Shown piece after piece: positions 61,349 to 64,000 of a DNA stretch of 64,000 nucleotides (its first letter is position 1; the number at the start of each line of letters is the position of its first letter). The position numbers were made by a program, and so were the translations under genes. This DNA comes from Alphaproteobacteria bacterium (GTDB lineage Bacteria > Pseudomonadota > Alphaproteobacteria > UBA8366): the NCBI GenBank assembly GCA_021774335.1, contig JAJFJD010000019.1:62001-126000 (forward strand), given 5' to 3'. The notes below the pieces were generated by a model that was not told where the DNA came from, did not search any database, and saw only the letters and a list, made by a program, of their open reading frames with translations.

Positions 61349-61661
61349 TCCTATAGAAGTCGCGTTTTATTCCCCCAACCCCCGATACTTTTTAATGTCG
61401 AGTTCAAGTAATAATAAAGAGCCATGTTAGTATTACTGTATTACAGTTATATAGCATTTTATCTTAATTTTTTGCTTCTTTCTTTGTTCAAACCTTGTCA
61501 CAAAATTTCGAGTAAGCGGTTTTTCTTAAACGCAAGTTGCGGGAGTCCCTGAAATTGGCGCGAAGGTACTAGTCGCCGATCGATGATGGTGTCGCCGTTT
61601 CATGTGATTTGCCGCATCGCGCGCGACGTCTATACTGAGCCATCAACTTCAGGAGAACGAT
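61349..61661. promoter_or_regulatory. AT-rich divergent intergenic region with dyad
   Basis: No gene is supported. The stretch 61380-61520 is unusually AT-rich for this genome. It contains the perfect dyad ACTGTA-T-TACAGT at 61435-61447, a possible operator of the leucine-dehydrogenase-like gene. The end (61651-61656, AGGAGA) is the ribosome-binding site of the glutaredoxin-DinB gene. Confidence 0.5.
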
Positions 61662-62444
61662 GTGTCCGCGGAAACGATCAGAGTTTTTTGGCGCCCTGGG
61701 TGAACAAGCTGCCTTCGTACGAAAGAGTTTCTTTCGTCTCAAAACATCGACCATGAGTCAGTAAACGTTGAAGGCAACGCGGCGGGCATGGACCTGCTGT
61801 CGAGCCTCGGCGCGACCTCCGTTCCCGTCGTCTCCAAGGGCGACGAATTCGTCTATGCCCAATCGCTGCGTGATGTCGCTGAATTCCTGGACATCGATGC
61901 GTCGGTTGGACCCACGCTGTCCATGCCGGAACTGGTCGACAAGCTCGATTTGGTGCTGGCGACGGCGCAGCGGCTGTGGCGGCAACTGCCCGACGAGGCA
62001 TTGGCCGAAAAACTGCCAAACCGCGACCGCAGTTACCGCGTCCTTGGACACCACATCTTCCGAATTCCGGAAGCCTTCCTCGAAGTGACCGAGGGGGCGA
62101 CTCTCACTTATGACATGCTGACGACGGCGCCGCCGGACGCCATGACGACTGCCGAAGACATTGCCGCCTATGGCGACGATGTCCGGAAGCGGGTCAAAAA
62201 GTGGTGGCTGATGGTCGAGGATGTCACCGGTGAAGCGAAGGTGCCGACCTATTTTGGCGACCAGCCGATCCACGATGTGTTCGAGCGAACGGCCTGGCAT
62301 GCGGCCCAACACGTACGCCAGACCGCGATGATCCTTGAGCAACGGGGCATCACGCCGGATGCACCGCTGTCGGCGGATGACCTCGACGGCTTACCGGTTC
62401 CGGACAAGGTCTGGGACGACGAGCCGGACGCCGCTGCGACTTAG
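61662..62444 (+). CDS. Candidate selenoprotein: glutaredoxin-DinB fusion with in-frame TGA (UTSC)
   Basis: Read from GTG 61662 behind AGGAGA with 5-base spacing, the frame gives SAETIRVFWRPG, then TGA at 61701-61703, then TSCLRTKEFLSSQNIDHES, and on without a break into the downstream frame. The residues around TGA match a glutaredoxin active site (xxGCxxC), with TGA replacing the first, nucleophilic Cys (position 14) and Cys 17 kept. The cis-Pro TSVPVV motif follows at about residue 50. Residues 85-260 are a DinB-like four-helix domain (RVLGHHIFRIPEAFLEV; RTAWHAAQHVRQTAMIL). Length is about 260 residues. Alternatively TGA is a nonsense mutation and only 61788-62444 is made. Confidence 0.72.
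61719..61737 (+). promoter_or_regulatory. Candidate bacterial SECIS hairpin
   Basis: ACGAAAG-AGTTT-CTTTCGT is a perfect 7-bp stem with a 5-base loop, starting 15 bases after the TGA. The loop has G in its second position, about 24 bases from the TGA. This fits the general bSECIS description: a short hairpin immediately downstream, loop 16-37 bases away, with a G early in the loop. It lies wholly inside the coding sequence, as bacterial elements do. Confidence 0.6.
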
Positions 62445-62489: not shown

Positions 62490-62927
62490 TCAGAGGGCCT
62501 TCTTCATATGTACCTTGTTGCCGGTTCTGCCGATTTCCTGCCAGCCCAGGTGAGAATAGAGGTCGATATTTTCGGGCATGTCCACATGCGTGTTGAGGCG
62601 CAGCTCGTGCATGCCCAGTTCCAAACAGTCGGAATCGGCACGGTCCATCAATTTCCGTCCCAAGCCTAAACCGGCGTTCGCTGGATGTACTGCGACGTTG
62701 GCGAGAAATATGTATCCGTCCTTTGGAATCATGATGATCCCGCCGACTATTTTTTGGTCCATCTCGATGACCCAGACCCGGTGATTTGCGATGTCGTCGG
62801 CGACACCTTCGGATACGGCGGGCAGGTCGGGCACGCGCGTCGAATAGATCGCGTACGCCGCCTCGATACAGTCTGACAGCGCACCCCCGTCGTCGGTGGT
62901 TGCTTTGCGTAGAAGCCAATCTGCCAT
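62490..62927 (-). CDS. GNAT-family N-acetyltransferase
   Basis: 145 residues. The acetyl-CoA motif is in NAGLGLGRKLMDRAD, with the usual strand IFLANVAVHP ahead of it and the late DLYSHLGWQEIGRTG. It is a single-domain small acetyltransferase of unknown acceptor. It runs convergently with the glutaredoxin-DinB gene, 45 bases apart. Confidence 0.9.
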   Translation of the reverse strand: MADWLLRKATTDDGGALSDCIEAAYAIYSTRVPDLPAVSEGVADDIANHRVWVIEMDQKIVGGIIMIPKDGYIFLANVAVHPANAGLGLGRKLMDRADSDCLELGMHELRLNTHVDMPENIDLYSHLGWQEIGRTGNKVHMKKAL

Positions 62928-62975: not shown

Positions 62976-63395
62976 TCAACGGTCCCGCGATTTTCGGGAA
63001 TGGAATCCGAAAGGGGCGATCTCGGTGATTCCGCCGCCGCCGGGAACGCGGAATTTCAGGACTTTTTCGTCGGGGTTGGTCGGGTCGCCGAATGTTTCGC
63101 CGCCATGCGCCTCGATCGCCGATCGGTATTTGGTCATATCGCCGACATCGATTCCAAAATGATGGATGCAGGGACCGGACCCGGCCTGATTGCCCATCAC
63201 GCTGTCCGCGGTGTCGTATTGGACCAGCGCTAGATCGAGATGCCCGTCGGTAAGGTGTAGAGAGACATGGTCGCCGTCGCGATGGCGCGACACTTCGGTG
63301 AAACCGAACAGTTCCTTGTAAAAGTTCGCCGCCGCTTCCGCGTCCTCGACCTTCAGTGCCAGATGCGCGATGCGGGGATTGTCCTGTTTTTTCAT
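62976..63395 (-). CDS. VOC (glyoxalase/dioxygenase-fold) protein
   Basis: 139 residues from MKKQDNPRIAHLALKVEDA; a much longer open frame upstream overlaps the divergent cupin gene antisense and is rejected. Metal ligands of the VOC fold are likely His in RIAHLALKV, His in CIHHFGIDV and Glu in GGITEIAPFG. It could be a lyase, isomerase or dioxygenase; no specific substrate can be told. It is divergent from the cupin gene. Confidence 0.87.
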   Translation of the reverse strand: MKKQDNPRIAHLALKVEDAEAAANFYKELFGFTEVSRHRDGDHVSLHLTDGHLDLALVQYDTADSVMGNQAGSGPCIHHFGIDVGDMTKYRSAIEAHGGETFGDPTNPDEKVLKFRVPGGGGITEIAPFGFHSRKSRDR

Positions 63396-63479
63396 CGATA
63401 GTGTCTCCCGATCAAACGCCCGATATATTGAACGAGGGCGCGAAGACTCTATTTCAACACATATGGCAGTGCAGGGGCG

Positions 63480-64000
63480 ATGGATTTGGCCGAAATGTTT
63501 TCTCTGAACGCCGACTTCACCGAGATTGCCGTCGCCCATACCGCGGCGATGGACTGGCAGGAGAGCCCGAGCCCGACGGTATGGCGCAAGCGGCTCGATC
63601 TCTCCGGGCCGGCAGAAGCCGGGCGGGTCACGTCCGTCGTGCGCTATGACCCGAACAGCAGCTTTGCCTCGCATCCGCATCCCGACGGTGAGGAAATACT
63701 TGTGCTCGAAGGCGTGTTTTCAGACGAACACGGCGACTATCCCGCCGGCAGTTATATCTTGAACCCGGAAGGCTTCAGCCACACGCCCTCTTCCGAGAAG
63801 GGGTGTGTGCTGTTCGTCAAGCTGCGTCAGTATCCGGGGCTGTTGCGCCAGCAGATCAAGGTGGACAGCACGCACGCGCCCTGGCGCGAGACGGGAACAC
63901 CGGGTGTTCTAGATCTTCTCCTTTATGAAGAGGCCGGTTATCCCGAAACCATGCGGCTGGTGAGTTGCGAACCCCAGTCGGGCGGCATTGCGCTCGATCA
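63480..64000 (+). CDS. ChrR-type cupin protein, N-terminal part (cut by window edge)
   Basis: From ATG 63480, after AGGGGCG, the frame runs open to the end of the window (173 codons). The cupin motif SHPHPDGEEILVLEGVF, then DYPAGSYILNPEGFSH, has the usual His/Glu metal ligands of anti-sigma ChrR-like cupins. A second cupin half begins near residue 125 (DSTHAPWRETGTPG). No N-terminal zinc anti-sigma domain is present, so it is a ChrR cupin-domain protein rather than full ChrR. Confidence 0.85.
   Translation, partial: MDLAEMFSLNADFTEIAVAHTAAMDWQESPSPTVWRKRLDLSGPAEAGRVTSVVRYDPNSSFASHPHPDGEEILVLEGVFSDEHGDYPAGSYILNPEGFSHTPSSEKGCVLFVKLRQYPGLLRQQIKVDSTHAPWRETGTPGVLDLLLYEEAGYPETMRLVSCEPQSGGIALD

Follow-up and report, generated by a model that had tools for sequence, protein, structure and literature searches.

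A predicted selenocysteine-containing glutaredoxin–DinB fusion in Alphaproteobacteria, with downstream hairpins at two positions

The DNA analysed here, hereafter the window, is a whole stretch of 64,000 nucleotides (nt) from an alphaproteobacterium (assembly GCA_021774335.1, contig JAJFJD010000019.1, positions 62,001 to 126,000 of the forward strand). Near its end lies a gene encoding a glutaredoxin domain fused to a DinB domain, with an in-frame UGA at residue 14, where the first cysteine of the CxxC motif is expected. We conclude from sequence comparison that this UGA is very probably decoded as selenocysteine (Sec), because the reading frame is otherwise open, both domains are present, Cys and UGA are paired at this residue among relatives, the downstream hairpins are conserved and the genome carries the Sec genes. 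The broader picture, to which we give even chances, would be that of a new family of selenoproteins in which a Sec glutaredoxin is joined to a DinB metal domain. It would bring selenium into the DinB thiol-transferase superfamily for the first time, and it would be scattered in Alphaproteobacteria and hidden as truncated DinB genes. In this family, the selenocysteine insertion sequence (SECIS) would have moved from 36 to 22 nt past the UGA or the reverse, the protein sequence beneath each hairpin would have changed in shape as well, and one of two paralogues in the same genome may have received the cassette from the other.

The features of the gene are the following:
61651..61655, + strand, ribosome-binding site AGGAG, 6 nt 5' of the GTG start (from the sequence)
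61662..62444, + strand, glutaredoxin–DinB fusion gene, 260 residues with UGA read as Sec, stop TAG at 62442-62444 (from frame and translation)
61680..61853, + strand, glutaredoxin domain PF00462, residues 7-64 (37.3 bits, cut-off 22.9)
61701..61703, + strand, in-frame TGA, residue 14, predicted Sec of the UxxC motif (from alignment to relatives)
61710..61712, + strand, Cys17, second residue of the UxxC motif (invariant in the 84 proteins of alignment A1)
61719..61737, + strand, predicted SECIS hairpin of type A, 7-bp stem, loop AGUUU with G second, loop 22 nt past the UGA (from folding and comparison)
61788..62444, + strand, 218-aa truncated reading from ordinary calling of open reading frames (ORFs), ATG start (from the ORF list)
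61944..62321, + strand, DinB_2 domain PF12867, residues 95-220 (29.2 bits, cut-off 24.8; DinB fold matches)
62052..62054, + strand, His131, likely metal ligand (invariant in A1)
62298..62300, + strand, His213, likely metal ligand of an HxxxH motif (invariant in A1)
62310..62312, + strand, His217, likely metal ligand of the same HxxxH motif (invariant in A1)

Between the GTG at 61662 and the TAG at 62442-62444, the sole stop is the TGA at 61701-61703. The first-pass annotation of this DNA had read the gene from a GTG with a ribosome-binding site through a single TGA; its coordinates are borne out, and there is no second stop in frame. The redox motif of the window protein is UTSC, with the TGA at its first position. 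The fusion proposed by the same annotation also holds, both Pfam domains scoring above their cut-offs once the TGA is read through. The ATG at 61788, from which the ordinary ORF starts, falls inside the glutaredoxin fold, and by eye no good ribosome-binding site lies directly before it.

Conservation was followed in alignment A1, which comprises 84 proteins: those of 39 TGA loci, of 18 of the 19 Cys loci (without L087) and 27 of the 86 listed full-length Cys proteins described below. C14/U14, C17 and P55 are invariant in A1, as is W10 upstream of the UGA, P12 being nearly invariant. H131, H213 and H217 are also invariant and correspond to the three conserved His of the DinB / S-transferase-like superfamily, and the DinB domain likely carries a three-His metal site at these residues. 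For the N-terminal domain, the best-scoring models are the NrdH and YruB redoxins, yet they stay under their cut-offs (41.5 vs. 85.75 for NrdH redoxin TIGR02194). Each of the 84 proteins in A1 is matched by the Uxx-star model NF041212 at E ≤ 0.001. The window protein scores under the cut-off of this model (25.1 vs. 66), as it does for all NCBIfam 20.0 models. Among solved structures, the top sequence match is the glutaredoxin 7c10, titled cGrx1 (E 1.5e-13), which we take to be a Clostridium oremlandii protein; the DinB-fold structure matches include entries titled putative hydrolases.

A protein search found 1069 proteins, and the homologue counts at residue 14 given here refer to the 120 that were listed. 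Residue 14 is reached by 86 of these, and all 86 have both Cys14 and Cys17. The other 34 start past residue 14, in 21 cases at the position matching Met43, and the 25 best of the 120 listed matches all lack residue 14. One truncated entry carries the NCBI name ‘DinB family protein’. These truncated DinB entries are probably gene-caller products of the Sec-UGA, i.e. mis-annotated genes.

To find the TGA forms, whole genomes were read through stops in the window's order, in a sample of the class and in a sample of the phylum. The fusion is present in 20 of the 43 order genomes, in 32 of 385 genomes of the class sample and in 2 of 398 genomes of the phylum sample, both from the class. A TGA at residue 14 was found in 38 genomes: the window's own, a same-genus genome (91% protein identity) that keeps the same TGA, and 36 others. 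Every full-length locus examined in the order has the TGA at this residue; a TGA aligned with residue 14 occurs in 17 further class genomes. The class sample contains 19 genomes with the TGA form and 13 with full-length Cys forms only. The rest of the conserved frame is open in all 39 full-length TGA loci. The best tree needs 5 changes between Sec and Cys, of which well-supported branches force 2. The first-pass annotation had proposed to see whether residue 14 is Cys in most homologues and TGA in some; it is Cys in 86 of 86 listed that reach it and TGA in 38 genomes. Of the refuting conditions named there, homologues all without the N-terminal glutaredoxin domain and a genome without the Sec machinery (see below) are both contradicted; as to reads with TGC, the same TGA recurs in the same-genus genome and in the 36 others.

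Some genomes deserve a separate mention. In G345, one Cys copy (L087, G345:C25) and one Sec-type copy (L062, G345:C24) of the fusion coexist. In G022 (L044, L055, L057, L058), a frameshift after the UGA splits the fusion and the same match is found on two contigs, by decay or assembly error; this is the only broken case seen. These four loci were kept out of the counts, together with L022 (same contig as L030), L028 (without residue 14, its match beginning at the locus end), L056 (a partial second copy in G033, retained in alignment A3) and L050-L052 (weak matches missing the glutaredoxin part).

We also looked for the Sec machinery. The search of the genome for selA, selB, selD and tRNA-Sec that had been suggested for this locus recovered all four: selA, selB and tRNA-Sec (anticodon TCA) are on contig C4 and selD is on C38. 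The assembly is 7% contaminated; the same-genus genome G001 nonetheless has selA and both copies of the fusion (the second copy is described below). In the order, selA was found in 20 of 20 genomes with the fusion vs. 1 of 23 without it (Fisher p 2e-11, such p-values overstating independence because the genomes are related). The sole selA-positive order genome in which no fusion was found, G005, is 70% complete. In the class sample, selA is present in 18 of 19 TGA genomes, 3 of 13 Cys-only genomes and 56 of 385 genomes overall. The window's genome has two selD-like genes. One (L018, G000:C38:4650-5579) contains an in-frame UGA and is likely itself a selenoprotein; the other (L019, G000:C62:27362-28279) lies within a 763-residue frame and is perhaps a SelD fusion.

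The 7-bp hairpin with a G-containing loop of 5 bases that the first-pass annotation had placed 15 bases past the TGA was found at 61719-61737, its stem beginning 15 nt after the TGA and its loop being AGTTT. According to the published rule for bacterial SECIS, a G occupies one of the first two loop positions and is followed by G or U, the spacing is 16-37 nt and the minimum free energy is at most -7.5 kcal/mol (PMC13188914, legend of Fig 2). Two hairpin types occur in the family, and both have the loop-G pattern and the spacing given in that legend. Type A is that of the window's lineage. Its 12 sequences are all identical apart from the first base, where G and A both occur and each pairs with U. 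This type locks the codons AAA GAG TTT CTT TCG despite a GC content at third codon positions of 58-81% in the eight such genes measured. The commoner type H2 (28 sequences, 26 of them distinct) has 6-7 pairs and a loop CGUG followed by G, C or A, 36 nt past the UGA. Three of its pairs show changes on both sides. None of 500 shuffles reached its covariation score, its number of paired cells or its number of cells changed on both sides, and the score of slid versions did not exceed 0.127 vs. 0.413 for the hairpin itself.

These hairpins separate the TGA forms from the Cys forms. At least 6 of 7 pairs are formed at position A or H2 in 41 of 41 TGA rows and in none of the 19 Cys rows (maximum 5), whose pair counts at these positions equal the shuffled level. 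In a rule-based scan, each of the 39 TGA loci gave a hairpin with 6 bp or more and a G early in its loop. Under the loop and spacing rules, a stem of at least 7 bp was obtained in 38 of 39 TGA loci (L081 has 6), 1 of 19 Cys loci and 230 of 1950 codon-shuffled controls. Given this last figure, energy or stem alone was dropped as a test for SECIS; the argument rests on the contrast with the Cys forms, the fixed positions and the covariation. The 17-base core of the window's hairpin occurs exactly twice in the 5.4-Mb genome, after this UGA and after that of the second copy. The aligned TGA, the stem counts and this core together indicate more than a chance occurrence. The genome's own selD gene was considered as a source of the same SECIS and discarded, a different hairpin following its first in-frame UGA.

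Two further hairpins were noticed. The Cys form L072 (G335) has an 11-bp hairpin whose loop lies 29 nt past the Cys codon, either a SECIS relic or chance. Eleven H2 rows (L045-L049, L063, L078, L080-L082, L084) contain an extra 7-pair hairpin of the GAGACTC/GAGTTTC type, about 11-27 nt past the UGA and before H2; looping it out would place H2 at roughly the type A spacing.

Several observations weigh against the decoding of this UGA as Sec or against the hairpins as SECIS. Two of the five H2 measures are not above shuffles (two-sided-change pairs, 293/500; further pair types, 413/500), and kinship by itself may outscore shuffles. In type A there is too little variation for any two-sided change to be seen. 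The loop of H2, at 36-37 nt, is at the far edge of the 16-37 nt rule. The isolated 7-8-bp hairpin of the window has -6.2 to -6.9 kcal/mol vs. -7.5 in the rule (-8.8 for a 60-nt piece), and only 25 of the 39 TGA loci have an isolated hairpin at or below -7.5 kcal/mol. A stem that satisfies the rules also turns up in about one in eight codon-shuffled controls, and two of the 19 Cys loci (L072, L083) have a stem of at least 6 bp elsewhere. On the side of the machinery, no selA was found in G053, a 77% complete genome with the TGA form, and selA is present in the 3 Cys-only genomes counted above.

The second Sec-type fusion of the window's own genome (L054 / L090, G000:C60:19929-20675) has 50% protein identity with the first and the same hairpin DNA. 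From the UGA on, 47 of 48 bases are alike in the two copies, and 73 of 132 thereafter. This suggests copying between the two paralogues. On the full-length tree, type A needs two changes; on a quick tree made without the first 36 residues it needs three, a single type A clade not being rejected (approximately unbiased test, p-AU 0.264). Gene conversion between the two copies was therefore kept as a lead only and not as an established result. Whatever the order of events, the hairpin position differs by 14 nt within one protein family.

Other explanations of the UGA have to be compared with its decoding as Sec. If the TGA were a true stop, the locus would be a decayed fusion or would produce only a DinB-domain protein from the ATG at 61788. 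The 218-aa frame obtained by ordinary ORF calling and the many database proteins of this kind (34 of 120 listed lack residue 14) are in line with this. However, the TGA is at the same residue in 38 genomes, with the conserved frame otherwise open in 39 full-length loci, the residues before it (W10, P12) are conserved, the Sec machinery tracks the TGA forms, stems at positions A or H2 are confined to these forms, and the ATG would begin within the glutaredoxin fold. A true stop is therefore very improbable. Slightly less improbable, though still a poor candidate, is that Sec is inserted but that the UGA acts mainly as a selenium-dependent switch, giving the fusion with selenium and a short peptide without it, the latter perhaps alongside a DinB part translated from an internal start. 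Sec-UGA codons tend to terminate translation under selenium shortage, and an internal ATG exists at 61788; but this ATG has no good ribosome-binding site just 5' of it (by eye), and the 13 class genomes with full-length Cys forms only argue for an active-site role rather than a switch. Finally, the UGA could be read as Trp, or as Cys via a suppressor tRNA, since the alignment demands read-through without naming the residue. We find this hardly credible: the aligned residue is Cys and not Trp in all 86 listed homologues reaching it, tRNA-Sec (anticodon TCA), selA, selB and selD are present, and the TGA forms co-occur with selA.

With the UGA decoded as Sec, SelB on the downstream hairpin would deliver Sec-tRNA to it, the mechanism of other bacterial selenoproteins. 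In the full-length protein, a Sec14-x-x-Cys17 redox pair would precede the DinB helical domain and its likely three-His metal site. The DinB domain may be a metal-dependent thiol transferase. It would activate a thiol of low molecular weight, probably glutathione, for use against an electrophile or a thiolated substrate, and the glutaredoxin part would reduce or resolve the mixed disulfide with its selenol. The Cys form would perform the same chemistry, mostly in bacteria without Sec machinery. We propose this pairing of thiol transfer by DinB with a Sec/Cys pair handling the mixed disulfide only tentatively, at somewhat less than even chances. A competing account, with marginally better prospects that still fall just short of even, accepts the Sec glutaredoxin but makes DinB a hydrolase or a binding or docking domain, the redoxin serving other partners in an NrdH-like role. 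It would fit the best scores of the NrdH and YruB models on the N-terminal domain (under their cut-offs), the putative hydrolases among the matched DinB-fold entries and the lack of a conserved neighbour gene indicating thiol transfer. No conserved neighbourhood was found in 31 loci and the window: the commonest neighbour family is present in only 9 of 32 loci, at varied distances and adjacent in 3, and the next in 6 of 32. For this reason the neighbourhood was set aside as functional evidence, and it gives no support to a thiol-transferase role. On the other side, tested metal-dependent thiol transferases have a His triad (as outlined in PMC5815605) to which the three invariant His correspond, and both active sites are conserved together within a single chain (84 proteins, A1), which suggests one shared reaction.

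Prokaryotic selenoproteins were counted as 119 families and subfamilies in a 2026 review (PMC13188914), in whose family table no glutaredoxin–DinB entry was seen. Neither DinB nor glutaredoxin appears as a term in the main text of a 2025 deep-learning survey (PMC12013277). Glutaredoxin selenoproteins are named in PMC1088965 and PMC1794560, and no DinB fusion was seen in the available sections of either. A literature search on selenoproteins with DinB and glutaredoxin gave no glutaredoxin–DinB selenoprotein among the matches listed (main texts). The first-pass annotation had known of no description of a Sec-carrying fusion of this kind, and none was found in that family table, in the literature matches listed or, for the window protein, in NCBIfam 20.0.

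One of the closest known systems is the Sec glutaredoxin Grx (UxxC; PMC13188914, PMC1088965), which like the window protein has Sec at the first CxxC Cys of a PF00462 redoxin. However, Grx proteins are small oxidoreductases according to the entry in PMC13188914, whereas the window domain is fused to DinB. The UXX-star family (NF041212 and relatives, and the HUGP/GUXX-star fusion NF045501) also consists of Sec-carrying glutaredoxin-like domains, one of them also fused; but the window protein is far under the cut-offs, with 15.7 vs. 325 for NF045501 and the score given above for NF041212, which is a 70-position model without a DinB part. The glutathione S-transferase (GST)-like selenoprotein (PF13409, in the table of PMC13188914) is likewise a predicted selenoprotein of the thiol-transferase kind, although by domain identifier it belongs to the GST fold family and not to glutaredoxin plus DinB. 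As it is already listed, only the link to the DinB superfamily would be new. This DinB / S-transferase-like superfamily includes BstA-H, mycothiol S-transferase, EgtB and mycothiol-dependent maleylpyruvate isomerase; of its two-domain members in the available text of PMC5815605 (a lincomycin enzyme and EgtB), neither is presented there as a selenoprotein or as fused to a glutaredoxin. Glutaredoxin is also joined to an enzyme domain in the hybrid Prx5 (1nm3) and in Grx-NrdB (PMC6187632, in outline), but the partner domain differs. GSTs also combine a thioredoxin fold with a following all-helical domain; GST matches from Foldseek have a root-mean-square deviation of 10-16 Å over the whole chain, or 4-16 Å when all chain-spanning GST structure matches are counted, and the part common to GSTs and the window protein is probably the redoxin alone. 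To our knowledge, neither hybrid Prx5 nor Grx-NrdB is a selenoprotein. If our reading is right, the fusion would be a new domain combination among prokaryotic selenoproteins, would tie selenium to the DinB superfamily and would correct a class of probably mis-annotated genes, including the 25 best of the 120 listed matches. The two SECIS positions in one family would also be a natural experiment on the tolerance of SelB to a 14-nt change in spacing.

The two genes beside the fusion in the window do not belong to the neighbour families common to at least 3 loci; both are on the opposite strand:
62490..62927, - strand, GNAT acetyltransferase
62976..63680, - strand, glyoxalase-family protein
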